The translations under genes and the position numbers were made by a program. The notes beneath the pieces were generated by a model. The model was not told the origin of the DNA. It ran no database searches and saw only the letters and a program-made list of their open reading frames with translations. Positions 23,686-39,943 of a stretch of DNA of 39,955 bases are shown here, piece by piece. Source of the DNA: Muribaculaceae bacterium (lineage in GTDB: Bacteria > Bacteroidota > Bacteroidia > Bacteroidales > Muribaculaceae); contig JAFLTU010000001.1 of the NCBI GenBank assembly GCA_022509125.1, forward strand, positions 1 through 39,955, read 5' to 3'. The stretch's first letter is position 1. Every line of letters starts with the position of its first letter.

Positions 23686-23762
23686 CCTCTTCACTATTAA
23701 CTATTCCCTCTTCTCTATCCACTATCCTCTATTAACTATTAACTATCAACTATCAACTATCC
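23686..23762. repeat. Heptamer array, ACTATYA type, 11 units
   Basis: Eleven consecutive 7-bp units fill most of the gap between the glycosyltransferase and radC without a single phase slip: variants of ACTATTA, ACTATCA, ACTATCC, TCTATCC and CCTCTTC. It ends 4 nt before the radC ATG, so it would also be its leader. Confidence 0.85.
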
Positions 23763-23766
23763 TCCC

Positions 23767-24489
23767 ATGTCCTCTGAAGAAAAACTCTATCCCGCCCCTC
23801 CGAAGATAATACGCACAGTCAAGGAAATGGACGAAGACCAACAGCCACGCGAGAAGGCAGAGAAGTTTGGAGTGGGGGTCCTGTCCGTTCCTGAGCTCTG
23901 GGCTATACTGTTGCGCACCGGCACTCCGGGCTATCCCATAACGGAGCTTTGCCGCGATTTGATGAGAAACAACGACGGATCCCTCCATAAACTTGAGCGG
24001 CGCACAAAGCAGGAACTATGCGAAATGAGGGGCATTGGCTCAATGAAGGCCATACAGATTCTAGCAGCGATCGAGTTGATTAAAAGATATTGTTTCGAAG
24101 ACATTCCTGATGACGATCCCATCAGAAGTTCAGCCCAAATTTACGAACGGCTGCGCCATAAGATAGGAAATCTCGACCACGAGGAGATTTGGTTGCTCGT
24201 GCTCAACCGTCAGAACAAGGTAGTCAAGGAATTCCGGCTCACTTCAGGAACAGGAAACTCCACCGTCTTCGATGTCAAGACGGCAATAAAACTTGCATTA
24301 CTTGAAAATGCCGAAGGCCTGATACTTTCTCACAATCACCCCTCCGGCACCCTCAAGCCAAGTCCCCAGGACGACCGTATCACTCAAGATCTCCGGGAAG
24401 CCTGCAAATTCATGGGAATTCGCTTTCTCGACCATGTCATCGTCACAGCCCATGGCTACTATAGCTATAACGACAGCTCCCGCCTTTGA
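23767..24489 (+). CDS. radC: RadC-family JAB-domain protein
   Basis: The 240-residue protein has an N-terminal helix-hairpin-helix region (KRRTKQELCEMRGIGSMKAIQIL is split here by KQELCEMRGIGSMKAIQIL) and a C-terminal JAMM/MPN metal site SHNHPSG (H189, H191) with D202 in PSPQD, as in RadC. Despite the name, a role in DNA repair is not established; the fold suggests a metal-dependent hydrolase. No Shine-Dalgarno is seen; the leader is the heptamer array. Confidence 0.93.
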   Translation: MSSEEKLYPAPPKIIRTVKEMDEDQQPREKAEKFGVGVLSVPELWAILLRTGTPGYPITELCRDLMRNNDGSLHKLERRTKQELCEMRGIGSMKAIQILAAIELIKRYCFEDIPDDDPIRSSAQIYERLRHKIGNLDHEEIWLLVLNRQNKVVKEFRLTSGTGNSTVFDVKTAIKLALLENAEGLILSHNHPSGTLKPSPQDDRITQDLREACKFMGIRFLDHVIVTAHGYYSYNDSSRL

Positions 24490-26542: not shown

Positions 26543-28930
26543 ATGAAAAAATTCTCCTTAGGTCTTTTAACCATGGCTCTCCTGACGGCTTCAGGCCTCC
26601 GGGCTGCCCCTTTGTCGCCCGAAGCTGCTCTCGACCGTGTCGAGGGTCCTTTGACCCGCGGGTCTGTCAATCCGAAACTCGTTAAGACGCTCCATACTCC
26701 CACAGGCACCCCGGCTCTCTATCTCTTCAATAAGGGAGAGGCCGACGGTTTCATGGTCGTAACAGCCGACGATGCATTTACCCCCCTCCTGGGCTATGCC
26801 GATGCCGGCTCTCTCGATCCGGAAAACATAGCCCCGGGACTCGCCTACTGGCTTGATGAATACACTCGTCAGATAGACTTCGCTCTCGATAGGGGAGTGG
26901 CTCCAATTTCCACAAGAGCCGGAATCACCTTGCCCGACTGGCAACCTATTTCACCATTGCTCAAAACTCTCTGGAACCAGGATGAACCTTACAACAATCT
27001 TTGTCCCGAAGATCCCTATTATAACTACAAGAGAAGTTATACGGGTTGTCTTGCCACTTCAATGGCCCAGGTGATGAACTATTTCCAATATCCTCTCCGG
27101 GGTCAGGGTTCAAATTCCTATTTAGCTTATGAAATCGACCGGCGAATGTCTATGGTCTTTTCAGAAGTGGAATTCGATTGGGAAAACATGCTCCCCTCTT
27201 ATTCCGGGGATTACACTGAGGAACAGGCTAAGGCAGTGGCTACTCTGATGCTCGCTTGCGGCATTTCCGTGAATATGAACTATACGGCTGCTGTCTCAGG
27301 AGCCATCAACAATGCCGTGGCCCCCGCATTGGTGACCTATTTCAAATATGACAAGGGGATAGAATACTACACCCGCGATTACTATACCTACACCGAATGG
27401 GCCGAAATGCTCTATAACAACCTTAAGAACGTTGGTCCCGTGATTTACAACGGCAACGGTTCCGGTGGTGGCCACTCATTCGTTTTCGACGGATATGACG
27501 GCCAAGGCTATTTCCATATCAACTGGGGCTGGGGAGGTCTCAGCAATGGTTATTATCTCGTGGATGCCCTCCAGCCCGGAGGCATCGGTATCGGTGGAGG
27601 TATGGGTGCCTATAATTTCAACCAGGGTGGCATTTTCAACGTAAAACCAGCAGGCGACGTGGAGGCGGAAGAACAGCACGAGATGGTTATGTTTGGTAGC
27701 CTCACAGGTATTGTTAACGACGATTCCCTTATTCTTAACCTTATCGATGCGATTGTGCCCGGATGGGGTATCCTATCAACTAAGAATATGAATGTGCAAC
27801 TCGGAGTGGGTTACCTTCCGGCTGACCAACCCGATGCAACTCCACAATATATCGCCGACAGAAACAACGATTTCACCAATGTCTCACCCTCCACCTACAT
27901 TGGCAATAAGAGTGTGAGCATCAACCTCCCGTCAATGAATCTTCAGGAAGGGGTGAAATATAAAGTATTCTCGGCCTATCGTCAGAAAAACTCAGATTGG
28001 TTGGAAGTGATGGCAGAAAACGGTATGTATAATTATTTCTACCTGACAAAAGAGGGGGGCTCCTACATTGTGGATAATATTCCCCCTATGGCATTCGAGG
28101 CCGACAAGATTGAGTTGCTCACCGACCTCTATGAGGGAAGTGCGGTAAAGGTACAAGTCACTCTATCCAATCCCAATCCCATAGAGTTATCAAAAAGTGT
28201 AGCCCTCGCTTTGGTAGGAAACAGCGGACGTCTGCAATTCCTCGGTGAAAACGTGCTCTTCACCCTTGCCCCCGAAGAGACACGGGTAGTGGAATGGGCC
28301 ACTCCTCTGTGGAAACTATCTTATGTGGGGTCACTAACTTCTCCCACAGAGTATTATCCGGGTCTCTATAACGAAAAATCAGACGAGGTGTTCTACACAT
28401 CTCCCTCCAAAGTCGTAATGAACCCGGCTTCCGAAGACCTAGACTTGGCAATTGACATCACAATACCCGGTGTATCACAAGACGCTGAAGGTTCTTATAT
28501 TGTGGAGGATGCTTCCAATTTCAATGTCATGACCCAGGTGACGGTAAATTCCGGTTATCTGGCCGATATGCTCTATCTGAGTATCTACCAGCCGGTAGAG
28601 GGAAGCGACAGAGCCACCGGCCTTCAGGCTTATCCTCTCGGCGAATTCACAGTGCTTAACAACGGAGAGTCTTTATCGTGGAACACTACTGTAGACTTTT
28701 CGGCTGCTGAGCTCGACGGCTTCTATTATCTGGGAGTCACCGACAGCAATATGCGCAGCCTTGCCGAACAATTGACAGTCAGCTTCGTAGTCAAGGGAGT
28801 GGGGGGTGTAGAGACAATCAAAGCCGATCCTTCCGACGGAGTCTACTACAACCTTCAGGGTATTCCTGTTTCTAACCCCCGGAAGGGTGTGATCTACATC
28901 CACAATGGCAAGAAAATCATGCTGAGGTAA
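26543..28930 (+). CDS. C10-family cysteine peptidase (streptopain-like) with T9SS-type tail
   Basis: The 795-residue protein has a signal peptide (MKKFSLGLLTMALLTASGLRA is the first 21 residues; hydrophobic LLTMALLTASGL), a pro-domain (about 25-140) and a C10 catalytic domain with Cys169 in TGCLATSMAQVMNYF and His311 in GGHSFVFDGYD, followed by FHINWGWGG. Then come about 400 residues of beta-rich Ig-like modules. The last 30 residues (YYNLQG, NPRKG, HNGKKIMLR) are the short sorting-type tail shared with 29577-30992 and 36286-38250. It is probably exported by the T9SS as a self-processing protease. Heptamers begin immediately after the stop codon. Confidence 0.92.
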   Translation: MKKFSLGLLTMALLTASGLRAAPLSPEAALDRVEGPLTRGSVNPKLVKTLHTPTGTPALYLFNKGEADGFMVVTADDAFTPLLGYADAGSLDPENIAPGLAYWLDEYTRQIDFALDRGVAPISTRAGITLPDWQPISPLLKTLWNQDEPYNNLCPEDPYYNYKRSYTGCLATSMAQVMNYFQYPLRGQGSNSYLAYEIDRRMSMVFSEVEFDWENMLPSYSGDYTEEQAKAVATLMLACGISVNMNYTAAVSGAINNAVAPALVTYFKYDKGIEYYTRDYYTYTEWAEMLYNNLKNVGPVIYNGNGSGGGHSFVFDGYDGQGYFHINWGWGGLSNGYYLVDALQPGGIGIGGGMGAYNFNQGGIFNVKPAGDVEAEEQHEMVMFGSLTGIVNDDSLILNLIDAIVPGWGILSTKNMNVQLGVGYLPADQPDATPQYIADRNNDFTNVSPSTYIGNKSVSINLPSMNLQEGVKYKVFSAYRQKNSDWLEVMAENGMYNYFYLTKEGGSYIVDNIPPMAFEADKIELLTDLYEGSAVKVQVTLSNPNPIELSKSVALALVGNSGRLQFLGENVLFTLAPEETRVVEWATPLWKLSYVGSLTSPTEYYPGLYNEKSDEVFYTSPSKVVMNPASEDLDLAIDITIPGVSQDAEGSYIVEDASNFNVMTQVTVNSGYLADMLYLSIYQPVEGSDRATGLQAYPLGEFTVLNNGESLSWNTTVDFSAAELDGFYYLGVTDSNMRSLAEQLTVSFVVKGVGGVETIKADPSDGVYYNLQGIPVSNPRKGVIYIHNGKKIMLR

Positions 28931-28958
28931 AAGTGCCGAGTGCCAAGTGCCGAGAGCC
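28931..28958. repeat. Heptamer array, RAGTGCC type, 4 units
   Basis: Four 7-bp units (AAGTGCC, GAGTGCC, AAGTGCC, GAGAGCC) start at the first base after the TAA of the C10 peptidase gene. Confidence 0.85.
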
Positions 28959-29006
28959 TAACATAATGAAGGATCCATCTGCAAAGATGGGTCCTTAATT
29001 ATGTTA
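28959..29006 (+). terminator. Long hairpin with GCAA tetraloop after the C10 peptidase gene
   Basis: A 22-position stem (28959-28980 with 28985-29006, one G-A mismatch and one T-G pair) closes on a GNRA-type GCAA loop. The core GGATCCATC/GATGGGTCC matches the terminator at 38360-38398, including the position of the T-G pair. There is no good T tract, so termination is likely but not certain. Confidence 0.65.
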
Positions 29007-29022
29007 AAAAATCATCTAAAGG

Positions 29023-29165
29023 GAGTGCCGAGTGCTGAGTGCCAAGTGCCGAGTGCCGAGTGCCGAATGCCAGAGCCGCGTGCCGAGTTATGAGCATAGA
29101 GCATGGTGCATAGTGCACAGTTTTTTGAATAGTGCCAAGTGCTGAGTGCCAAGTGCCAAGTGCCC
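29023..29165. repeat. Second heptamer arrays, RAGTGCC type, with a GCATAGA-type stretch between
   Basis: Seven in-phase units of GAGTGCC/AAGTGCC/GAGTGCT type (29023-29071), one 6-nt unit, then GCGTGCC, and a change to units such as GAGCATA, GAGCATG, GTGCATA and GTGCACA up to 29119 in the same phase. After a T6 tract the AAGTGCC type returns (29131-29164). Confidence 0.8.
29082..29131 (-). repeat. 50-bp inverted repeat, left copy
   Basis: The reverse complement of this segment matches 39894-39943 at all but about three of 50 positions, including a run of A6 and the heptamers CTATGCA/CCATGCT. Confidence 0.82.
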
Positions 29166-29192
29166 ATTACATACTATACTTTTTAATTATTT

Positions 29193-29392
29193 GAAAAATC
29201 AACCCCTCCTATTGAGGAGGAAGAGGGGGGAGCGTCCGCAGCTTCGCAAGCGGTTAAAATAGTCACGGTTCCACCGTGACAAGGCCCCTCCGGGGCAGGC
29301 CATTAACAATCAATCAAATTGAAAAGGATAAGTTAGATGAGTAAGAACTATTGAAAAACGATAAACGAGTTTCGACAAACGATAAACGAACC
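29193..29392. repeat. Structured dispersed element, copy A
   Basis: About 200 bp that recur in the same orientation at 39496-39735. It holds successive hairpins: CCTCC/GGAGG near 29205, CCGC/GCGG at about 29236-29253, GTCACGGT/ACCGTGAC (8 bp, 3-nt loop, 29262-29280) and GCCCC/GGGGC (29284-29296). A 72-bp segment with two copies of AACGATAAACGA ends it. The core 29251-29296 is 44/46 identical and the 72-bp segment 70/72 identical between copies. No open frame is visible. Confidence 0.85.
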
Positions 29393-29511
29393 TGCACCGT
29401 GCTCTGTGCACTCATTAGAAACCATTCCAAACTATGTACTGTGCACCGTGCTCTGTGCACTCATTAGAAACCATTTCAAACTATGTACTGTGCACCGTGC
29501 ACTATGCACTC
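29393..29511. repeat. 49-bp tandem repeat, about 2.4 copies
   Basis: Units start at 29393, 29442 and 29491. Each begins with heptamers of the type TGCACCG, TGCTCTG, TGCACTC and continues with a stretch containing CATTAGAAACCATT and AACTATGTACT. The first two copies differ at about two positions. Confidence 0.85.
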
Positions 29512-29521
29512 TTTAATAACA

Positions 29522-29560
29522 CAAAAAATAGGAGAGACTCCGGAAAGTCTCTCCTCTTTT
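29522..29560 (-). terminator. Terminator of the minus-strand gene 29577-30992
   Basis: AGGAGAGACT/AGTCTCTCCT (29530-29539 with 29546-29555) forms a perfect 10-bp stem with a 6-nt loop. On the minus strand it is followed by a T-rich tract (A-rich at 29522-29529 on the plus strand). Confidence 0.85.
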
Positions 29561-29576
29561 CATCTACTTGGTGTGC

Positions 29577-30992
29577 TCACCTCACCATTATCTTTTTGCT
29601 CTTATTCCCTTCGACTTTGATCACAATCTCGCCGGCTTTGGGATTCTTAACCTCGCGTCCCTGCAGATTGTAATATTTCGCCGGGCCCTTGTAATCATCC
29701 ACGATTCCCGTGATAGCATTATAGCCTTCAGGGAGAATGATCCTGGTGGTCATATTCGCACGTGCTCCGTCGGCTTTATACCATTGCAACCCACCGTAAT
29801 ATTGATCCTGAGTTCCGTAGTTGGCATCATACACCTCTACGTCATAGGAATTGATGCCCTCGTTCAATTCGATTACCCCTTCATCAGTCAAAATCGTACG
29901 CGGTACTCCCGGGAAGTATTCAAAAGTACTTACCGGCGGCAACGACCACCGTAAAAAATAAAACATTGCCTGGTTATAAGTGAAGAACCGAGATATCCCA
30001 AGATCACTATTAGCGAAGCCTGCCTCATATCCCGCCGGATTAATGATTACACAATTCGGATCAGTTATGTCAAACATGATGCAACCTTCACGCGTGGCCT
30101 CGTTGTAAGGAGCTGCAGGTCCCACCTTATAGGGATCCACAAGTCTATACATATTGGGATCATGGATATATTGCTGGAGCTTTACTTCATACTGGTTCTC
30201 CGGAAGCATTTGGTCGATTCCCAGGGCCGGGAGAACCCATCCGTCTACCAATGTGGCCATACCCTTGTCAACCCATATAGCGCTTTCATCGCGGTCTGGA
30301 AAGTCATCTTTAAATGCATCTTCAATATCGAGCACGTTGATGGTGGTAAAATACTCATTTGATAGGTCGTAGACAGCCCATTCCACGCTAAGCGGTTCGT
30401 CAAACTGTATCCATCCTCCATCTTCGTAGCGGAACGTAGCCTTCACAGATTGGTATTCCGGTCTGTCTAGATCATCGTTATATACAAAGGGTTCCTGATA
30501 GATATAAAACTCATATAATGTGTAGACAGTCTTTGTCACGATTCGACGTGAGAAGGTAAGCTGACGGGTTTCTTCGTCATAGTCCGCCAGAAGGGGCTCT
30601 TCATAATTCGTGATATTATCGAAATGCACTACACCATCTATCAATTTAGCTTCGAAAAAATCGTAGTATTCGCCCACAGATTCTTGCTCCCTGTAAAAGT
30701 CTCCCATCACGAAAACCCACTTTCCATCTATCGAGGGGTTCTCCTCATCTGCCCGGGTTCCGATCTTGCGGGCTCCCATTATTCTTTTGTTCTCTTCGGA
30801 GCGAGCCTTAACGCCCTTGGAAATCTTTATCTCATTCCTATTGAATACCGGAGTGCGGAATTCGGAACGGTTAGTGAAGTCATACAAGCCCTGTTCAACG
30901 CCATCAGGGTTAGGTGCGGGCTGACTTGATGCGATACTCGGAAGGCCGGCGAATGCCAAGGCTCCCATTGCGATAGTTAGAAATCTTTTCAT
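29577..30992 (-). CDS. Secreted protein with T9SS-type sorting tail, unknown function
   Basis: The 471-residue protein has a signal peptide (MKRFLTIAMGALAFAGLPS) and no membrane segments. The body looks like beta-rich modules: one around DGKWVFVMGDFYREQESVGEYYDF (split: DGKWVFVMGDFYRE, SVGEYYDF), then ADYDEETRQLTFSRRIVTK. A motif MYRLVDPYK lies near residue 285. The last 30 residues (KYYNLQGREV, NPKAG, GNKSKKIMVR) are the sorting-type tail seen in its neighbours. I do not recognise a catalytic site. It converges with the C10 peptidase and has its own terminator. An adhesin or surface binding role is only a guess. Confidence 0.82.
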   Translation of the reverse strand: MKRFLTIAMGALAFAGLPSIASSQPAPNPDGVEQGLYDFTNRSEFRTPVFNRNEIKISKGVKARSEENKRIMGARKIGTRADEENPSIDGKWVFVMGDFYREQESVGEYYDFFEAKLIDGVVHFDNITNYEEPLLADYDEETRQLTFSRRIVTKTVYTLYEFYIYQEPFVYNDDLDRPEYQSVKATFRYEDGGWIQFDEPLSVEWAVYDLSNEYFTTINVLDIEDAFKDDFPDRDESAIWVDKGMATLVDGWVLPALGIDQMLPENQYEVKLQQYIHDPNMYRLVDPYKVGPAAPYNEATREGCIMFDITDPNCVIINPAGYEAGFANSDLGISRFFTYNQAMFYFLRWSLPPVSTFEYFPGVPRTILTDEGVIELNEGINSYDVEVYDANYGTQDQYYGGLQWYKADGARANMTTRIILPEGYNAITGIVDDYKGPAKYYNLQGREVKNPKAGEIVIKVEGNKSKKIMVR

Positions 30993-31055
30993 GTCGTTAT
31001 TAGGTTTAATAATTTATTCTATAATTAAAAATGGTCCTCGTTATTTCTATATTGC

Positions 31056-31078
31056 GAGGACTTTTGGAAAAAGTCCTT
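31056..31078. repeat. Hairpin similar to that at 26170-26194
   Basis: AGGACTTTT/AAAAGTCCT with a 3-nt loop, 10 bp with a terminal wobble pair. The core GGACTTTT/AAAAGTCC is shared with the hairpin after the MFS gene. It lies 64-86 nt upstream of the ATG of the minus-strand gene, so it may be in its leader. Confidence 0.6.
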
Positions 31079-31312
31079 CACTTTTGCACTCAACCCCTGC
31101 TAACCTATTTCAGATTGCTGGAAATTTTATGCCAATATAATAACAAAAATCAAAACCCACAACTCCTATATATATTAGGCTTGGGAATTTTAGATTATTA
31201 TTTATAAATTAACAGAATTTCCCATAAATCCATCCTATATGCAGTTGCAGTCAAAACAACATAGTTCTTCCCTCAAAAATTAACTTTTAACTTTTGAAAC
31301 CTCTATCCCTAC

Positions 31313-31348
31313 TTCAGTGAAATAGTAAAATTCAGTGAAATAGTAAAA
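31313..31348. repeat. Perfect 18-bp tandem duplication
   Basis: TTCAGTGAAATAGTAAAA occurs twice without a gap (31313-31330, 31331-31348), directly beside the terminator hairpin. It looks like a recent slippage product. Confidence 0.9.
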
Positions 31349-31385
31349 TCCCCGAAAGTTCCTTTCCGAGGACCTTCGGGGATTT
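31346..31385 (-). terminator. Terminator of the minus-strand gene 31419-33542
   Basis: AAATCCCCG/CGGGGATTT (31346-31354 with 31377-31385) plus an inner stem forms a strong hairpin 34 nt after the stop. The minus-strand tail is T-rich in part. Confidence 0.8.
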
Positions 31386-31418
31386 ATTAAATTAAGAAGC
31401 TATATTATTCGCTAACGC

Positions 31419-33542
31419 TTAGCGTGCGATATGCTTTGATGATTTACCGTTTACAACTTTGATGTAAATACCATTTTCGGGACGGTTGATCTTTCTACCG
31501 CTCAGATCAAAGTATATTGCATTGCCATTTTCGCTGTTCAAATCATTGATTCCGGTTGAGTTAGTATCAATAGATAAATCAATCCAGTTGGAATCAGCAA
31601 TTTCTTCTCCGTCAGCGTCTATCGCCTGCACATGGAAGCTTACGGTGTATTGTCCTTGCGGCATTTCAAGAAGAGTTGCGGTTGTTACGCCATTTTCATT
31701 AACCTCACATTCTGCTTCGGTTGTTTGAAGCTGGTATTGGAATGTGGCGAGGAACTCAGCAACGTCTTCGAGTTCAATGTTTTTGATCTCGGTGTTGAAG
31801 CTAACGAGAATGTTGATAGCTTCTCCTTCAGGTTCTACACTATAGTTTGCATTGGATATTATCAAAGCCGGAGCAGTAGGATCAGCTATTTCTACAAGAG
31901 CGTCACGATAGTTTGATCTTGTGATTTCTTCTCCATCAGCATCGTAAGCAATGAATGCAAATGCATAGTCGTATTGTCCGGGAGCATCTACTGTGATGCT
32001 GGCTGTGAAATATCTGTCAGCATAGGTTGCATTTACATACTGAGCATTTGTTTCATAGTCGGGATCGTCATCTTCATTACCCGGGTGAGCATCCTTATAA
32101 GGCACGTATGTCATCTTGTATGTCGCGTCAGCAGGAATGCCCGACAATTCAAGTGCATATACCTTATAAGTGATAGTGAAGCCGTCTACAGATGTGTTAA
32201 CCTGAGTAATTTCAATGGTTTCAGTCAAATTAACGGCCAGAGCTGTAGCCTTACTGGAAACAATAACTTGTCCGTCTTCATCGTATGCGGTTAAGGTAAT
32301 CTTGTAACTATAGTAAGAACGCTCAATCACCGGTATTTTGACTATTGCTATATCTCCTTCTACAGAAACTGTGCATCCTTTTACTTCCTGGAAAGTTTCC
32401 TCATCTGAATCCGGGTTGTCAACATTGGGATATGCCTGCTCTACATATACTCCCCAACTTGCAACCTTAGAAAGGTCTAGGTTTTGGTAAGCCATTGTGA
32501 ATTGAGCTGTAATGGTTTCAGGAGTAGATGTATATTGAGGTTTTTGGAGGAGAAGAACGGGGTCAAGACCACTTATCTGGGTTGCCGAAATAAGATTGTA
32601 AGCATAGGTTTCACCGTTAGGAAGCTGTTCGCTGCCGTTAGTTAATAATTGAATTCCGGTATTTTCGGTAAATGTAATAGTTCCGGCTTCCTCGTTATAA
32701 ATAGCAGTAAATCCGGCATCATTCAAGCTGCTTGTTGATGTAACATTACCATTGGTGAAGGCTTTTTGCGTAACAGAGTTGTTCAGGCTTTGGCTTGAGA
32801 AAGTAAGAGTCTTTCCATCAGTTCCTAACGTAGCTCTGAAATATGGACCGTCGTTAAATTCATTCTGTTCTTCGAAGGTGATTGTGTTACCGTTAGCGGT
32901 CACTTTATAATTAGCTTGCTCTGTTGTGCTGCTTCCAATGGCTTGTTTTGTGAATGACCAAGTCCCTTCAATAGCCTGTCCGGTGATTGCCGGTGGAGTG
33001 TAGGGCAGAATGGAGATATTAGTATACTCTCCTAAAGTTCCGGTTTTTCCTGCTGTTGTGGCTGTGATGAAGTTAAAATCAGGTAAACTGATTGTGCCGT
33101 CTTCATTAAAAGTGATTATGAAATTACTGTTTACTCCACTTTTAAAACCACTCCATTCGCCAACTTCAAAACCATAATAACCTGTTATGGAATTGCCGGT
33201 AAAATTGTTAATCTTAAGTTGGCCTGTACTCTGATCGTAATTTGTGGATAGTTGTGTTATTCCCCCGGAAACGGAAGGTTGGAGATTAAATTCGTCTTGT
33301 ACGTAATACCCTCCCATGAAACTATATATGTTGGCACTTCCGCCTTGAACAGCAATTTGGAAAACAAAATTACCGTCAGAGTTGGCATAGGAGTTAGTCT
33401 GATAGTTTGTAAGGTCGGATGTGAATTGGTAGAATCCATCCAGCTCCTCGATAGCAGGTCCCGCGGCTACGGCTGAGCCGGTAAAAGCAACAGCCATGGC
33501 GACAGCCAAACCTGGGTTAAAAACTTTGGAAAATTTTCTCAT
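31419..33542 (-). CDS. Large secreted beta-rich protein with sorting-type tail, paralogue of 36286-38250
   Basis: The 707-residue protein has a signal peptide (AVAMAVAFTGSAVA, then AGPA). An N-terminal module (GFYQFTSDLTNY, then EDGTISLPDFNF, then YTNISILPY; residues about 35-190) is matched in the 654-residue protein at 36286. A second lipocalin-like module (IEGTWSFTK, about 195-330) follows, then three Ig-like modules of about 100 residues, each ending in a pattern such as YKITLTAYDEDG, YAFAFIAYDADGEEI or VSFHVQAIDADGEEI. The tail (IYFDLSGRKI, NGIYIKVVNGK, KHIAR) is a variant of the local sorting tail. Function unknown; a surface adhesin is possible. Divergent from 34079-36196. Confidence 0.85.
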   Translation of the reverse strand: MRKFSKVFNPGLAVAMAVAFTGSAVAAGPAIEELDGFYQFTSDLTNYQTNSYANSDGNFVFQIAVQGGSANIYSFMGGYYVQDEFNLQPSVSGGITQLSTNYDQSTGQLKINNFTGNSITGYYGFEVGEWSGFKSGVNSNFIITFNEDGTISLPDFNFITATTAGKTGTLGEYTNISILPYTPPAITGQAIEGTWSFTKQAIGSSTTEQANYKVTANGNTITFEEQNEFNDGPYFRATLGTDGKTLTFSSQSLNNSVTQKAFTNGNVTSTSSLNDAGFTAIYNEEAGTITFTENTGIQLLTNGSEQLPNGETYAYNLISATQISGLDPVLLLQKPQYTSTPETITAQFTMAYQNLDLSKVASWGVYVEQAYPNVDNPDSDEETFQEVKGCTVSVEGDIAIVKIPVIERSYYSYKITLTAYDEDGQVIVSSKATALAVNLTETIEITQVNTSVDGFTITYKVYALELSGIPADATYKMTYVPYKDAHPGNEDDDPDYETNAQYVNATYADRYFTASITVDAPGQYDYAFAFIAYDADGEEITRSNYRDALVEIADPTAPALIISNANYSVEPEGEAINILVSFNTEIKNIELEDVAEFLATFQYQLQTTEAECEVNENGVTTATLLEMPQGQYTVSFHVQAIDADGEEIADSNWIDLSIDTNSTGINDLNSENGNAIYFDLSGRKINRPENGIYIKVVNGKSSKHIAR

Positions 33543-34078
33543 AAGATTTTTGTTTTATCCCATCTTCCAAATTTCGATCCTTTTTATTTTATATGTATAC
33601 TCGTTCTCTTTGAGTAACGGTCTTGTGAGGTTCTAACTGGAATTAAGGATTGGTTAGTAATTGGATTGTTTTGACAAAATAATACAATATTTTACGGATT
33701 TACAATAAATTACATTGTTATTTAATTATTTTTAACAAATATTAGTTTTTGCAATTCTTCATTTTAAGATATTGATTTTATTTCTATTTCATGCTAAGCA
33801 TTGAAGTTAACATAGGTTCCCTTATGCGCTATTTGGAGAGATTGACCCTATTTAATACTAACTGACATGCTTTTTGAATGCTATGATGTGTGCATACATT
33901 TGTTACAAGACCATGTTTATAATGTCGATACCTTTTTACAGCAAGGGTAATTTCCATTTATAAATGATGAATTATTCAAGGTGTAATAATAACCATTAAT
34001 TTATCGTTTTATTAGGAAATATCAAAATAAATAAATATATTTGCGAAATCAATCATAATTTTTTCATACATTTTGAAT
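33543..34078. other. 536-bp divergent intergenic region
   Basis: Very AT-rich and gene-free. It must hold promoters for both divergent cargo genes. A plus-strand promoter is clear at 34012-34043. A weaker minus-strand candidate is ATTG (33704-33707) and TTATTTTG (33676-33683) with 20-nt spacing. The remaining 300 bp may be regulatory; I see no strong repeat in it. Confidence 0.6.
34012..34043 (+). promoter_or_regulatory. Bacteroidetes-type promoter of gene 34079-36196
   Basis: TTAG (34012-34015, one mismatch), 20 nt, TATATTTG (34036-34043, full match). The start codon is 35 nt downstream. Confidence 0.65.
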
Positions 34079-36196
34079 ATGAGCATTTCTAAGAAAGCAC
34101 TGTTAGCAGTGACCCTGGCCGGACTCTCGGCCTCCGCATTTGCAGACTCTGCACTCGCACCCTATTCCCTAATCCCTAACCATCGGTTTGACAAACCCAT
34201 GTTCTCGGCCATGACCCTTCCGCGTCAGGCCGATTCAAGAAATTTCGATATCTTCGCAGAAAACCAATCAGTGAAGAGCGATGCCCTCACAAGAGCTGAA
34301 TCCGATCCGGGCAACTCCTTCAACGGTGTGCCTGAATATTCCGAGATCACTACTCCCGTCGGACGATTCTTCGTTACAATGGATTACGAAATTGAGGAAA
34401 ACTACGTCAATGAATACTACACGGAAAAGATTATCACAGGCTTTAACCTTACTTTCTACGACGGTCAGTTCAAAGAGGTTGGTTCAATTAAAGATAAAAT
34501 CGAATTCGACTCTGCAAAGGGAGAAACCGCAACGGCACATTGCATCGTAGATAACTATGCATCCCAGCATTTCTTCAACGACGACGACAACATCGAGGTG
34601 ATGGTTTATCTTGGTATCAAAACCGGACCCAATTTCGATTATCATCCCAATTTCTATGAGAAGGTTTATAGCCTCGGTGGCGAAAAAAACGAAGAGGGCT
34701 ACGACAAATGCATCTACACTATGGAAGGACGCCTTGTCGATACCATTTCCAATGGCACAGAGGAAGGCACTTACCTAACCTTCGTTAATGATATTTATTA
34801 CTCTGCAAAAGATTATCCCGATCCTGTTGCACGTGCCAAAGCCACTACCACCAAGGTGTCTATATATGGTTATGGCGCTACCGGAACTCCGGAGCTCGTT
34901 ATGGAGAAAGATATAAAGATGGTGAGCTATCCGGGTGACACCACGGATTCGCCTTATTTAATTTCCAAAAATGTCAACGGGACTTCTTATATGGTATTCT
35001 CTTTCTATGAACTCCCATATTTTGTGAATCCCCTTGGCGGAGCCGAAGATGAGAGTGCTACAACCAACAACAATTTCGTGATCGAAACTTGGAAACTTGG
35101 AGCAGAGCCTCAACCTGTCACCACTACCAAAATCAAGGTGGAAATTCCTTTTAACCCGGATAAACTCATGTATGCTTTCTATAGCATTGGCGACCTTACT
35201 TGGAAAGGTGACATTGACATGACCTATAACGGCACCCCCGAGTCTCCCGCTTACATCGTTAAAACCGACGTGGTTGCAGCTTCAGATCTCGAATCAGTTG
35301 CCTCCAGCTACGACCTTTATAAGGCTGATGGAACTCTGGACCACAACATCGCAAACAACGTAGAAAACTTTATCCAGCTCAGTTCTGCCGGCAGCGACGA
35401 ACCCCACATAATGTTCATTACGGTAGACGATAACGGCGATTACATCTTCAAATTCGTTGACCTATATTCGGGCAATATTGCAATGACTATCCCGCAAATT
35501 TATGACGGTGAACCCCTCATGGCTTCTGCTGAAAGAATCAAAGATGGCAACGAATATAAATATGCTATCCTTCTTCAGAACGATTATGTCGATGATGATT
35601 ATGTGGTGTTCAAACGTCTCGCCTGGTTTGACCAAAAAGGTAATCTCGACCATATCGACAAAATCCATATAGGTAAAGACGTGCAGGCTTCAACGCTCAA
35701 TATGCAGGCCTCCGTGCTCAATCCTTATCTTTTCGACGACGATCCGGAGATGGAATATGCAGTATTGGTGAAACGCACATACGATGCAACTGTCCGTAAC
35801 GAATTTATTATTGTAGACCACACCGGCGAATGGTATGCACATTTCACAGCCGACGACGGTAAGGGAGATCCTTACATGTTAACTGTTGTGCCTAACGGCA
35901 ACGGCGGAACATTATATATGACCTACAACGATGGTGTCAACTATAATATGGATGTCTATTCTCTCCCATTCGAGAATCTTGGCGTTGAGTCGATTATAGG
36001 TGAGTCTGCTAATGCCTACTACAACGGCACGGCTATTGTGGCCCCCGGTTCTTCAATCGTTCTCTTCAATATTTCAGGCGTAAAGGCAGCCGCAGGTAAA
36101 GAATACGTTGAGACCGTTTCCCTCCCGAAGGGGGTTTATGTAGCGGTAATTACCGAGTCAAATGGTAAAAAATCTGCTTTCAAATTCACAAAATAA
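34079..36196 (+). CDS. Large secreted protein with classical T9SS type A-like sorting domain
   Basis: From ATG 34079 the protein is 705 residues with a signal peptide (KALLAVTLAGLSASAFA). The body of about 600 residues is rich in short beta strands with acidic loops (DDNGDYIFKFVDLYSG, DDDPEMEYAVLVKRTYD), possibly a propeller, but no family is recognised. The last 75 residues form a classical sorting domain: VAPGSSIVLFNISGVKAAAG, LPKGVYVAVITE, GKKSAFKFTK. This differs from the short YYNLQG tails of its neighbours. It is followed by a strong terminator. The frame extends back to a TTG at 34073, which adds only two residues. Confidence 0.83.
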   Translation: MSISKKALLAVTLAGLSASAFADSALAPYSLIPNHRFDKPMFSAMTLPRQADSRNFDIFAENQSVKSDALTRAESDPGNSFNGVPEYSEITTPVGRFFVTMDYEIEENYVNEYYTEKIITGFNLTFYDGQFKEVGSIKDKIEFDSAKGETATAHCIVDNYASQHFFNDDDNIEVMVYLGIKTGPNFDYHPNFYEKVYSLGGEKNEEGYDKCIYTMEGRLVDTISNGTEEGTYLTFVNDIYYSAKDYPDPVARAKATTTKVSIYGYGATGTPELVMEKDIKMVSYPGDTTDSPYLISKNVNGTSYMVFSFYELPYFVNPLGGAEDESATTNNNFVIETWKLGAEPQPVTTTKIKVEIPFNPDKLMYAFYSIGDLTWKGDIDMTYNGTPESPAYIVKTDVVAASDLESVASSYDLYKADGTLDHNIANNVENFIQLSSAGSDEPHIMFITVDDNGDYIFKFVDLYSGNIAMTIPQIYDGEPLMASAERIKDGNEYKYAILLQNDYVDDDYVVFKRLAWFDQKGNLDHIDKIHIGKDVQASTLNMQASVLNPYLFDDDPEMEYAVLVKRTYDATVRNEFIIVDHTGEWYAHFTADDGKGDPYMLTVVPNGNGGTLYMTYNDGVNYNMDVYSLPFENLGVESIIGESANAYYNGTAIVAPGSSIVLFNISGVKAAAGKEYVETVSLPKGVYVAVITESNGKKSAFKFTK

Positions 36197-36203
36197 TATT
36201 TAG

Positions 36204-36245
36204 GGAGTGGAGGCTTGCCGCCTCCACTCCTTCCTATTTTTTTTA
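36204..36245 (+). terminator. Strong terminator between two cargo genes
   Basis: GGAGTGGAGGC/GCCTCCACTCC, an 11-bp perfect stem with a 5-nt loop (36204-36230), followed by TTCCTATTTTTTTT. Confidence 0.92.
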
Positions 36246-36285
36246 AAATCTTACCAAATTTAATACTAACCAAATTTAAAAGCCT

Positions 36286-38250
36286 ATGAAAAAGTTTTCA
36301 ACCCTTTTGAAAGGGCTTACTGCCCTTGCGGTGGTATGTGGCTTCACATCCCAAGCCAATGCCGCTTTCCCATCTGCTGAATCTCTGGTGGGATCCTATT
36401 CTTTTACATCAGATTTTACCCTAGTAGATAACCAATTCGAAGGTAAGATTGCCGGTACCTTTAATTTCTCAATTACAAACACTTCTGGTACCCTCTACCT
36501 CCGGAACTTTGATAATGATGGTCTTTCCTATACCTTGGATTATGATGAAGATAACGGAATTTTAACATACAAAGTTGTTTATTGGAAAATTGGCACTCAA
36601 ACTGTTTATCTTGCTCCAGGTGGAAAATATACAGGTTTTGCTGCTACTGTAGCCAATTATTTAAAAATTTCAGTAGCAGAAGATGGTACGCTTTCAATTC
36701 CTAACTTTGACATCGTAAATGTAGCGTCATTGTCAGGTTCAGAAATTACAGCAACTTATGCTAAATATAGCAATATTTCTGTTGAAAAATATAGTGATGA
36801 CCCTGATGCTGACCTACCAAAACCTGTAAGTTTCGAAGGTACCTACGCCTTTACGGGCACTCAAGTTAAATACACTTATGATGAGGATGGAAATCAGATT
36901 TCAGAAAAATCTGCAGGAGACTTCAATTTAGTTATTAAATTTAATGAAAAATACTGGGAACTTGGCAGCCGTAATGGTACTAATTATTACAACAATATCG
37001 AAGAAATAGCCGGTTATAAAATTGAGAATGCTATTGACCACAACACCACCAATGAAGTAGAAGATAATACTATTACTTATCCGTCTGCTCCAGGGAATGG
37101 AGTAGCATGGGGTATAGAGCCCTTTGTAGGGGAAGAAGGCCAACAATATACTTCATCTTTAATATTTGGTGGAAACAATGTAAATGAATGGAATCAAGGG
37201 GATCCTGCAATTGTATTGACTGTTAACAGCGACTCTGATTATTCTTTGGAACCTTTCACTATTTGGCTCAAATATCCTGTTGAAGAAGGTTCAGGAGAAA
37301 GTGCAACAGTATCTTACAGCTATCAATTAGTTTACTACTGGACTAATGAAGATTTCATTCCCGAACCGGACCCCGATCAGCCGGGTGAAGAATCTCCGTT
37401 CGCTGGGGAATATGCTCTCAACGGCACCTTCTATAACTATACCAATGGTGAGGTATCCAGCATATCCGACGGTTTCTTCGATCTCATGATCAACAAAGAC
37501 GGACAGGTTACAGCCATCGGCCAGAACCAGATTCCTCTTGCCGACCTTGCAGAAGGAGTGAACATGGGTGTTATTGATGAGGATGCAGGCACTTACACAC
37601 TTACTACCGGTCCGAATACTCTCGTTCAGTCAGCTAATCCTACTCTTCTCCTCGGTGGCGCTTCAACCGAAGCTTACGCTGAAGGTGAAAAAATCGTTCT
37701 TACTGTAGCAGAAAAGAATGATTATAGTCTCACTCCGTTCACTGTTTGGAGAGCTAACGACGACGGCACATACACTCTCGTTTATGCTTGGGACGCTAAT
37801 CTCTATCAGGGTATCACTGTTACCAATGCCAGTGCCGGATGGAATGCTCAGGAAGAGCTCGAAATTACTTTCACTGCCAACCTCACCAATATCGTGCCTG
37901 CTGACGTAGACGAATGGCTCGTGAACCTCGAATACACGGCTGATAATGGCGCAGCCAAGACTATCGAAGCAGAGGCTGCTTACGCCGGCAACACTGCTAC
38001 TGTTGTTGTTGAGGATCTTGAAGTCGGCGCATACACCTTCACTCTGACCCTTCAGGCTATAGAGGATGATGAAGTTATCGCAACTTCAAATGAACTCACC
38101 GTTTCTGTGACAGCGGAATCTACCGCTATCAACGGCATTAACGCTTCAACTCTTGAGAATGGCGTTTACTACAATCTCCAGGGTGTACGCGTAGCCAACC
38201 CGCAGAAGGGTATCTTCATCCTCAACGGCAAGAAGGTGATCGTTCGCTGA
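36286..38250 (+). CDS. Large secreted beta-rich protein with sorting-type tail, paralogue of 31419-33542
   Basis: The 654-residue protein has a signal peptide (LTALAVVCGFTSQANA). The N-terminal module (GSYSFTSDFTLVDN, then EDGTLSIPNFDIVN, then YAKYSNISVEKY) matches that of the 707-residue minus-strand protein. Two further modules start FEGTYAFTGTQ (about 183) and FAGEYALNGTFYNY (about 370) and look like lipocalin-type repeats. An Ig-like module ends in YTFTLTLQAIEDDEVIATSN. The tail (VYYNLQGVRV, NPQKG, LNGKKVIVR) is the local sorting tail. Base composition of the first half is more AT-rich than the second half, which may mean a mosaic gene. Twelve heptamers follow the stop. Confidence 0.85.
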   Translation: MKKFSTLLKGLTALAVVCGFTSQANAAFPSAESLVGSYSFTSDFTLVDNQFEGKIAGTFNFSITNTSGTLYLRNFDNDGLSYTLDYDEDNGILTYKVVYWKIGTQTVYLAPGGKYTGFAATVANYLKISVAEDGTLSIPNFDIVNVASLSGSEITATYAKYSNISVEKYSDDPDADLPKPVSFEGTYAFTGTQVKYTYDEDGNQISEKSAGDFNLVIKFNEKYWELGSRNGTNYYNNIEEIAGYKIENAIDHNTTNEVEDNTITYPSAPGNGVAWGIEPFVGEEGQQYTSSLIFGGNNVNEWNQGDPAIVLTVNSDSDYSLEPFTIWLKYPVEEGSGESATVSYSYQLVYYWTNEDFIPEPDPDQPGEESPFAGEYALNGTFYNYTNGEVSSISDGFFDLMINKDGQVTAIGQNQIPLADLAEGVNMGVIDEDAGTYTLTTGPNTLVQSANPTLLLGGASTEAYAEGEKIVLTVAEKNDYSLTPFTVWRANDDGTYTLVYAWDANLYQGITVTNASAGWNAQEELEITFTANLTNIVPADVDEWLVNLEYTADNGAAKTIEAEAAYAGNTATVVVEDLEVGAYTFTLTLQAIEDDEVIATSNELTVSVTAESTAINGINASTLENGVYYNLQGVRVANPQKGIFILNGKKVIVR

Positions 38251-38254
38251 TTAG

Positions 38255-38338
38255 AAGTGCCAAGTGCCGAGTGCCAAGTGCCAAGTGCCGAGAGCCGAGT
38301 GCTGAGAGCCAAGTGCCAAGTGCCAAGTGCTAAGAGCC
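38255..38338. repeat. Heptamer array, RAGTGCC type, 12 units
   Basis: Twelve units of AAGTGCC, GAGTGCC, GAGAGCC, GAGTGCT, AAGTGCT or AAGAGCC without any phase slip, starting 4 nt after the TGA of the 654-residue protein gene. Confidence 0.9.
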
Positions 38339-38359
38339 AATTGAATAAGATTTCAAAAA

Positions 38360-38398
38360 GAGGGATCCGTCAATATCTGACGGGTCTCTCCCTTTTTT
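38360..38398 (+). terminator. Terminator with GGATCC core, overlapping the next promoter
   Basis: A 13-bp stem (38360-38372 with 38378-38390, two wobble pairs) with a 5-nt loop, then T6. Its core GGATCCGTC/GACGGGTC is shared with the hairpin after the C10 gene. The T tract is part of the -33 TTTG of the rpn-like gene. Confidence 0.9.
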
Positions 38399-38427
38399 GT
38401 AACTTCTGAAACTTATTATTATATTTG
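38396..38427 (+). promoter_or_regulatory. Bacteroidetes-type promoter of the Rpn-family gene
   Basis: TTTG (38396-38399), 20 nt, TATATTTG (38420-38427): full match. The ATG at 38479 lies about 50 nt downstream. Confidence 0.82.
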
Positions 38428-38478
38428 CAATTACAGGAGTTTTTGCCCTAAGGAATCGCAGAGTTACATTTGGCAATA

Positions 38479-39474
38479 ATGAAAACAAAAAATAGATACG
38501 TAGACGCCCTGATCGATTCAGGTTTTAAAGCTATTTTCGGTAAACCGGGGTACAGTGAGGAAATTCTCAAAGGATTCCTCAACACTCTTTACGCCGGAGA
38601 ACCTTATTTTGATCCGATTAAAAAAGTGGTATTTAATAATCCCATACAGGACCCGGTTCCTGTGAAGGGAAAGACCATAGTTCATGATGTGATATGCGAG
38701 ACCGACAGTGGTCACCGGTTTATCTTGGAGATGCAAAGGGCAAGAAAGGACGATTTCCTCCCTCGTTCAACCTATTATACATGTAGAGGAGTAACCGAAC
38801 AGGTAAACCTCTCGACGGATAGGAGACACTTTAAATATACATTCCTGCCGGTGACAGCTGTGTATATCTGCGATTTTCTAATGGAGTCACTGGAGAGGAA
38901 ACTCAAGAGCCATTTCATGTTTAGGGACACAGAGACTGGATATGTCCTCAACAATGGAATAAGGATAGCTTATGTCCAACTTCCGATGTTTGACAAAAGT
39001 TGGGAGAAATGTGACAATAAATTTGAACAATGGATTTATTTAATGAAGAATATGCATAGACTTGAGGAATTTCCGGCAACAAGCTTGAAGGATGAAGTTT
39101 TCGCGAGATTGGAGAAGGTAGCCAACTACGCAAGCCTCACTCGAGAGGAACAGGCGGTCTATGAGGCCGACCTTCGCTGGATAAGCGAGTATGATGAAGA
39201 GATGGCCACGGGTCGCCGTGAGGCTATGGCCCAAGGTTTAGCCGAAGGTAGGGCCGAAGGGTTAGCCGAAGGGAGGGCCAAAGGATTAGCCGAAGGTCGA
39301 GCCGAAGGTCGAGCCGAAGGTAGGGCCAAAGGGTTAGCCGAAGGTCGAGTCGAAGGTCGAGCAGAGGAAGCAGCAATGATTGCCCGTAATCTTTTAAGGA
39401 AAGGGATGGATGAGGAATTCGTGGCGGAAACTACCGGGCTTTCCCTCCAAGAGATTAAAGCACTACAAAAATAG
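38479..39474 (+). CDS. Rpn/PD-(D/E)XK-family nuclease (recombination-promoting nuclease or putative transposase type)
   Basis: From ATG 38479 the protein is 331 residues. The N-terminal part is the PD-(D/E)XK_2 type: YVDALIDSGFKAIFGKPGYS, then VVFNNPIQ, then a core site CETDSGHRFILEMQRARKDDF that supplies Asp, Glu and a following Gln (E-x-Q variant of the D-ExK motif). A helical region follows (about 165-250). From 39241 to 39360 ten 12-bp units encode a repeating AEGR/AEGL/AKGL tail, then a short C-terminal helix (MIARNLLRKGMDEEFVAETTGLS). Proteins of this family are common and multicopy in Bacteroidales. A role in DNA cleavage or recombination is plausible but unproven. Confidence 0.87.
   Translation: MKTKNRYVDALIDSGFKAIFGKPGYSEEILKGFLNTLYAGEPYFDPIKKVVFNNPIQDPVPVKGKTIVHDVICETDSGHRFILEMQRARKDDFLPRSTYYTCRGVTEQVNLSTDRRHFKYTFLPVTAVYICDFLMESLERKLKSHFMFRDTETGYVLNNGIRIAYVQLPMFDKSWEKCDNKFEQWIYLMKNMHRLEEFPATSLKDEVFARLEKVANYASLTREEQAVYEADLRWISEYDEEMATGRREAMAQGLAEGRAEGLAEGRAKGLAEGRAEGRAEGRAKGLAEGRVEGRAEEAAMIARNLLRKGMDEEFVAETTGLSLQEIKALQK
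39241..39360 (+). repeat. Ten in-frame 12-bp minisatellite units in the Rpn-family gene
   Basis: Units are variants of GCCGAAGGTCGA, GCCGAAGGGTTA, GCCAAAGGGTTA and GCCGAAGGTAGG. The repeat encodes four-residue units (A-E/K-G-R/L) and keeps the frame, so copy number can change without breaking the gene. Confidence 0.92.
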
Positions 39475-39495
39475 CAACAAATAACCCGTAGATTA

Positions 39496-39735
39496 GAAAA
39501 TCAACCCCGCCAGGGTTGAGGAGGAAGAAGGGGAGGGCATCCGCCAGCTTCGCAGGCGGTTATTATAGTCACGGTTCCACCGTGACAAGGCCCCTCCGGG
39601 GCTTTACATTGACAATCAATCAAAAAGCCCATCCGGGGCTTGACATCCACAATCATTCAAATAGAAAAGGATAAATTAGATGAGTAAGAACTATTGAAAA
39701 ACGATAAACGAGTTACGACAAACGATAAACGAACC
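39496..39735. repeat. Structured dispersed element, copy B
   Basis: Same element and orientation as 29193-29392, 22 nt after the Rpn-family stop. The hairpins CAACCC/GGGTTG, CCGCC/GGCGG, GTCACGGT/ACCGTGAC and GCCCC/GGGGC are present. It is about 40 bp longer because the GGGGCTT...AATCAATCAAA segment is imperfectly duplicated (about 39590-39661). The 72-bp end segment is at 39664-39735. Confidence 0.85.
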
Positions 39736-39769
39736 TTCGCCGTGCACTATGCACTCGAGTTTAAATTGA

Positions 39770-39893: not shown

Positions 39894-39943
39894 TATTCAA
39901 AAAACTGTGCTCTATGCACCATGCTCTATGCACTTAACTCGGC
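39894..39943 (+). repeat. 50-bp inverted repeat, right copy
   Basis: Near-identical to the reverse complement of 29082-29131. It contains heptamers such as CTATGCA, CCATGCT and CTATGCA. Confidence 0.82.

Follow-up and report, generated by a model that had tools for sequence, protein, structure and literature searches.

Background

Several described systems are close to the sequences considered here. Members of the IS200/IS605 family have subterminal hairpins. Repetitive extragenic palindromes (REPs) and REPINs, which go with REP-associated tyrosine transposases (RAYTs, also TnpA-REP), are short dispersed intergenic palindromes in nearly genome-specific families, with the gene of a Y1 HUH transposase flanked by its repeat. 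A further group of enzymes, TnpA-Y1 subclass 1.2, is given in the available part of its description (PMC6006769) as having no REPs and, as a rule, none of the terminal structures typical of IS200. Because these transposases are described with neither insertion-sequence properties nor REPs, their role is left open.

The element considered here occurs twice in the window, a 39,955-nt stretch at the start of contig 1 (JAFLTU010000001.1) of a Muribaculaceae bacterium, whose assembly (GCA_022509125.1) has 81 contigs and 2.33 Mb and is 88.6% complete. Judged by MscL, the named record closest to the host is a Muribaculaceae MAG, at 91% identity. The two copies, at 29193-29392 and 39496-39735, are direct, in the same orientation and separated by ~10.3 kb. 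It is fairly probable that the hairpin-bearing part of this element, below called the head, is a REP/REPIN-like element that is non-autonomous and is moved in trans by a TnpA of subclass 1.2. Four things are observed: the head is dispersed, it inserts, its stems are conserved, and TCC triloop hairpins cluster around the TnpA genes of subclass 1.2.

Two joined repeat families and their dispersal

According to a global alignment, the left and right copies are identical in 182 of 199 gap-free columns, and a search of the host genome with the right copy as query recovers the left one at E 1.9e-49. The two direct copies of the original prediction are thereby borne out, as is its claim of a non-coding element, with no open reading frame (ORF) of at least 80 aa over either copy. 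What was taken for one element, however, is two joined repeats, a ~115-bp head with four hairpins (hp1 to hp4) and a tail with a 7-nt period. The 72-bp end segment does show the predicted identity of 70/72 between the left tail (29322..29393, from the genome search and alignment) and the right tail (39665..39736, from alignment), but it belongs to a separate dispersed repeat family. All features of both copies are on the forward strand.

Four successive hairpins, one with an identical 8-bp stem, had also been predicted, and the identical stem is that of hp3. The regular four-hairpin layout, in contrast, is only partly kept, as hp1 is degenerate in the left copy and the right copy has an additional tandem 37-bp hp4 unit. 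The left head (29193..29320) consists of hp1, a purine-rich spacer, hp2 (29236..29253, found by folding), hp3 (29262..29280), hp4 (29284..29296) and a linker; hp3, which reads GTCACGGT-TCC-ACCGTGAC, and hp4, which reads GCCCC-TCC-GGGGC, are given by both folding and a hairpin scan. In the right head (39496..39664), hp1 (39502..39518, by folding) has a five-base loop and no TCC triloop, and it is followed by hp2 (39541..39559, by folding), hp3 (39568..39586, with the same GTCACGGT/ACCGTGAC stem) and hp4 (39590..39602, again GCCCC-TCC-GGGGC). Both hp3 and hp4 are closed by a TCC triloop in each window copy.

Repeat counts for the host genome are lower bounds, obtained from 40 of 56 candidates scored at E<=0.001, with heads and tails separated by query range. 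At least 41 matches are found, of which at least 15 are head-type (on 12 contigs, query included) and at least 26 tail-type (the weakest at E 0.001). At least 25 of the tail-type matches lie away from any head-type match found. R1, a covariance model built from ten heads, recovers 13 host head copies, and the ten best (>=97 bits) are its training sequences. All head copies inspected are intergenic, and their neighbours include GAPDH/MscL, nitroreductase/rhodanese, FeS protein/porin, rhamnosidase/penicillinase repressor, PIN protein, rubrerythrin and others; among the neighbours that were scanned, no family is common to the genes flanking the examined copies. The head is thus a family of dispersed intergenic palindromes, as REPs are, although its number is low compared with the usual >100 REPs per genome (PMC2817692, in the part available).

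As for other genomes, R1 at E<=1e-4 finds the head in 5 of 111 genomes of the genus, that is, in four besides the host, and genome G043 is added at E<=1e-3. A scan with the exact hp3 pattern matches one viral contig, and a longer exact pattern gives none in a genome-contig collection, from which the host record may be absent.

Insertion between GAPDH and MscL

One head copy is in the spacer of a divergent GAPDH-MscL gene pair (assigned by Pfam), and this spacer is 432 nt long in the host. The nine related loci with the best MscL matches were compared, and in two of them GAPDH is not found within 900 bp. In the seven relatives that keep the gene pair, the spacer is 197-323 nt and the element is absent from all seven. 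Similarly, R1 run over the host and the nine relative loci matches the host alone. The distance from a conserved TGCAAA to what we take to be the -7 box upstream of MscL is 306 nt in the host versus 94-137 nt in the five relatives measured. Because it is absent from 7/7 comparable intergenic regions, the head must be able to insert. The empty sites, together with the number of head-type matches given above, support the earlier suggestion of a non-autonomous mobile unit, and the head behaves as one.

Folding and conservation of the stems

Folded as single-stranded DNA, both window copies are better than 200/200 shuffles (z -3.6 and -4.6). Covariation was computed for ten related heads on an explicit four-hairpin structure and compared with 500 shuffles. 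The fraction of paired cells is 89.8% of 264, a value reached by 3/500 shuffles, and it drops to 44.5% at most when the partners are slid. Double-sided changes appear in 5/27 pairs and 8 cells (2/500 shuffles each), so that compensatory changes are present in the stems. For example, hp1 takes the form CCCC/GGGG or CCTC/GAGG, and hp3 is changed on both sides in one copy. Perfect TCC triloop hairpins (stem >=5) are formed by hp1 in 5 of the ten heads, by hp3 in 7 and by hp4 in 4, and 9/10 heads have at least one. The GT[AG]G foot conserved in REPs is not conserved here: GTAG stands 5' of hp3 in 1/10 heads, in a count made for this hairpin.

Stable successive hairpins with compensatory changes, in copies that are intergenic wherever inspected, would also be expected of a transcribed structured RNA (a 3' UTR element, a terminator-like element or a small RNA) that is multi-copy by happenstance. 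This explanation appears improbable. At the Rfam gathering threshold the window contains a single described RNA family, a tRNA at 5-78; the neighbours of the copies are unrelated on both sides, and the head is inserted into an otherwise shorter spacer. Moreover, recognition of the hairpins at the DNA level would yield the same compensatory pattern.

Triloop hairpins at subclass 1.2 transposase genes

Host contig C13 encodes a 147-aa Y1 transposase amid dense palindromic repeats. A search with this TnpA protein gives 37 places in 24 of 101 genomes, and the 36 other than C13 TnpA have at most 56% identity. Thirty of the 37 places were used as loci, and 20 of the 37 in the triloop count within 600 bp. 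In 27/27 aligned TnpA proteins (three partial or interrupted ones of the 30 loci excluded) there is no variation at the HUH, W, Y and Q--HH residues. With DHVH and YIDNQEEHH, C13 TnpA carries the subclass 1.2 signature (HUH + Y--Q--HH), and it resembles the published subclass in being a 147-aa Bacteroidota protein with these motifs (PMC6006769, in the part available). The nearest solved structures are those of ISHp608 transposase and its relatives, and the NCBIfam name is IS200/IS605 transposase.

Flanks of these TnpA genes are frequently full of perfect hairpins. In genomes G043, G075 and G067 they run as a short hairpin, a spacer, a GC-rich hairpin, a TAAC-containing spacer and a short hairpin, an order much like that of the head. 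According to the count of perfect triloop hairpins with a stem of at least 6, the TCC/GGA loop accounts for 55 of 75 at up to 600 bp from the 20 TnpA genes (23 kb), in contrast to 33 of 121 at more than 2 kb from TnpA (244 kb) and 2 of 37 at loci of Rpn nucleases (105 kb). The layout around TnpA is inverted, with GGA 19 versus TCC 7 upstream and TCC 18 versus GGA 11 downstream. When stems of at least 5 are allowed, a TCC/GGA triloop lies within 400 bp at 22/30 TnpA loci, 16 of them on both sides, and at 1/29 MscL control loci (29 of 30 used, with the element-bearing host locus excluded). Since the triloop rule was first noticed in part of the same data, the contrast is a controlled one but does not replicate the rule independently.

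R1 was also run over the 20 TnpA regions and region L067, with its own training copy dropped. At E<=5 it gives 30 matches, 21 of which lie within 700 bp of TnpA. Without L067, which was excluded since its genome had earlier given an R1 match there, the numbers are 19 of 28, compared with a random mean of 2.2 and a maximum of 9 over 5000 placements. As for the purine-rich spacer, it was considered as a general feature and rejected, the values for the 22 bases 3' of the hairpin being 0.50 near TnpA and 0.53 far from it.

Both flanking units that were tested are multi-copy and nearly genome-specific. The unit flanking TnpA in G075 has 65 matches in G075, 8 weak ones in G067, 1 in G087 and 0 in the other 13 of the 16 genomes searched. 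The unit flanking the C13 gene has 22 matches in the host, of which 15 are on C13 itself and the other 7 are spread over five further contigs; in G040 there is 1 match, and in 14 others there is none. A Y1 gene flanked by its own repeat, as in REP systems, is seen for this sister family of the head and for the G075 unit, and not for the head family itself in the 88.6% complete assembly. One head copy (C13:23056) sits between units of the C13-flanking family, and in G043 one of six R1 matches lies beside its TnpA. A hairpin from the C13 flank, GGCCTC-TCC-GAGGCC, has its core in common with the hp1 form AACCTC-TCC-GAGGTT.

Compared with REP/REPIN and RAYT systems, the arrangement is alike in its short dispersed intergenic palindromes, in families that are nearly genome-specific and in sister families placed in inverted arrangement around the gene of a Y1 HUH transposase. 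It differs in the transposase, which is of the IS200-like Y--Q--HH subclass 1.2 and not of the YI-NP type, and in the repeat, a unit of three or four hairpins with a TCC triloop and no conserved GTAG foot. Likeness to IS200/IS605 lies in the nearest solved structures and the subterminal hairpins of that family, whereas the flanking hairpins here also exist as dispersed families without the gene. In contrast to the published subclass 1.2, given without such structures in the part of the source available (PMC6006769), triloop palindromes accompany the 22 loci counted above.

Four distant plasmid candidates for subclass 1.2 were examined among 30 listed of 140 matched records. A Persicobacter plasmid gene (L303) has the signature and is flanked on each side by two matching inverted hairpins whose loops are not TCC. 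The Bernardetia plasmid gene has no flanking hairpins, and in two cyanobacterial plasmid matches the 1.2 signature is absent from the matched stretch.

Proposed mobilisation in trans and competing explanations

Because the head hairpins resemble those crowding at TnpA genes of relatives, the head is probably a passenger moved by TnpA. It would be a short run of hairpins, most copies having at least one perfect TCC triloop, with a REP/REPIN way of life. An IS200-like subclass 1.2 Y1 (HUH) transposase would recognise the triloop hairpins where the DNA is single-stranded, such as in the lagging-strand template, and would copy or move the unit in trans into new intergenic sites. The C13 enzyme is one candidate and may serve the head family; alternatively, the cognate gene may be missing from the incomplete assembly.

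Several observations weigh against mobilisation by such an enzyme. No TnpA gene is found beside any copy of the head family in the 88.6% complete assembly, and of the host's two Y1 genes one is on C33, while the other, on C13, is ~8 kb away from a copy. The C33 protein (325 aa) has a weak REP_Tyr_transpos match below the cut-off, and no element is seen by eye in its flanks. TCC/GGA triloops are lacking within 400 bp of 8/30 TnpA loci, and 1/10 heads has no perfect TCC triloop at all. Most R1 matches near TnpA are weak (E 0.01-5); host region L117 supplies 7 of the 19, and the 19 are confined to 8 of the 20 regions. Nor is the purine-rich spacer general. The covariation comes from ten related copies, one of which served to draw the structure, and of its five measures that of further pair types does not rise above shuffles (443/500).

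The remaining points against concern genome G110, where the same three-hairpin cassette occurs in nine 145-bp units (L092-L100); in 8/9 of these the two 18-bp inverted ends are both present with no more than 3 mismatches. A short subclass 1.2 TnpA is not found in G110, the only PF01797 match being a 325-aa frame. These two facts together point to another mover there and are the strongest evidence against a single mover. Such units speak for the head being a miniature inverted-repeat transposable element (MITE) moved by a DDE transposase via terminal inverted repeats, with the hairpin cassette as cargo, and MITEs are likewise small, non-autonomous and structured. For the host family, however, this is unlikely: no terminal inverted repeats are seen in the flanks of host copies read by eye, and cassette-like units flank the Y1 transposase gene in G043 and G075. 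Reading of the G110 flanks by eye gives no consistent target-site duplication. Two of the G110 units lie within GGGTTAA arrays.

The Rpn nuclease and the genes between the copies

Four secreted-looking ORFs and a nuclease gene between the copies are present as originally predicted. The secretion call rests on signal-peptide-like N-termini, judged by eye. Two of the ORFs are on the reverse strand (29577..30992 and 31419..33542) and two on the forward strand (34073..36196 and 36286..38250); the third has a sub-threshold match to a type IX secretion system (T9SS) sorting domain in its tail, and the other three have no Pfam family. The Rpn/PDDEXK_2 nuclease gene (38470..39474, forward strand; PF12784 at E 2.3e-38, TIGR01784) ends 22 nt before the right copy. 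If the head is moved by TnpA, all five genes would be bystanders. At 26543-38250, a C10 peptidase and secreted proteins have like C-terminal tails by eye (YYNLQG..NP..G.YI...GKK...R). After the right copy, just to the right of the window, lies a gene for an AAA-ATPase_like protein (PF09820; L001 2182-3261).

That Rpn-family nucleases move the element, as was also suggested, is scarcely credible. The suggestion draws on the copy next to the Rpn gene and on another copy on C23, which has a short Rpn-like frame ~2.3 kb away. An Rpn gene abuts 1/13 of the copies found by R1, and the host has three PF12784 matches: that at the right copy, that on C23, which covers 30 profile positions, and one on C24, where no copy is found. 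By a rough estimate (13 copies, 3 Rpn matches and an assumed ~2000 intergenic slots), one adjacency would arise by chance in a few percent of cases. PF12784 is present in 76/111 genus genomes versus 5/111 for the head model (E<=1e-4). Moreover, of 30 Rpn loci taken from 30 relatives, a TCC/GGA triloop hairpin lies within 400 bp of 1 and is lacking at 29, and R1 gives one match at E<=5 over 109 kb of Rpn loci. On both the distribution and the flanks, Rpn is rejected as the mover. Rpn proteins are reported, in the part of the source available, to be toxin-antitoxin nucleases that act in phage defence and carry variable four-residue repeats (PMC10327210), a role that also speaks against it.

Within the Rpn gene, 12-bp tandem repeats at 39229-39362 encode LAEG/RAEG, as in the variable region of RpnS (PMC10327210, same part), and an internal ATG near 39225 could give a short form. 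The short Rpn-like frame on C23 lies amid heptamer arrays and units of the C13 TnpA-flanking family (L033, C23:75694-78783). PADLOC matches neither the window Rpn nor TnpA.

It was also proposed that the 10.3 kb between the direct copies form a cargo block, deleted or amplified through recombination. By general knowledge, direct copies that are ~90% identical could recombine in principle. The window copies are, however, two of at least 15 head-type matches on 12 contigs, so that a pair on one 148-kb contig is unremarkable. An empty or amplified state is not seen, although no search aimed at one was made; the proposal is very unlikely. On the explanation by a subclass 1.2 TnpA, which as a whole is fairly probable, the window copies would be two independent landings. 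The cargo block is probably incidental, with the copies making no frame around the intervening genes.

Heptamer arrays

The tail is of a sort that is common in the host genome. Strict intergenic arrays with its 7-nt period are seen in the window at 23701-23767, 29017-29088 and 38248-38343, with differing heptamers (AGTGCCR, ACTATYN). According to a scan over lags 4-13, the window has 3 arrays at lag 7, 1 at lag 12 and 0 at the others, while 20 kb of C13 have 5 at lag 7 and none at other lags. In other genomes (254 kb) there are 7 arrays at lag 7, 4 at lag 9 and 0-2 at the rest, lag 14 being a repeat of lag 7. Other heptamers (GGGTTTA, CCCAATA, CTCCCTA) appear in 4/15 regions of other genus genomes, the period being common and the sequence free. 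Heptamer arrays are already known elsewhere (PMC4679880, in the part available). A 50-nt inverted repeat of heptamer-like sequence (94%) lies just outside both copies, at 29082-29131 and 39894-39943.

Implications

REP-like elements themselves are known, and what is new here is the tie between such palindromes and a transposase subclass in which none were thought to occur; no paper linking subclass 1.2 to dispersed palindromes was recognised in literature of mostly open-access coverage. There is about an even chance that the Bacteroidota subclass 1.2 TnpA enzymes drive a REP-like system that has gone unrecognised, in which each genome would have its own fast-evolving palindrome family. As part of such a system, stems that change freely around a fixed TCC triloop suggest that it is the loop, rather than the stem, that the enzyme reads.

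The triloop that recurs both beside the gene and in dispersed repeats would provide a candidate substrate for subclass 1.2 TnpA. Some of the intergenic repeats of Muribaculaceae, a common gut family, may be accounted for in this way. A block of genes framed by repeats is not necessarily a mobile unit.

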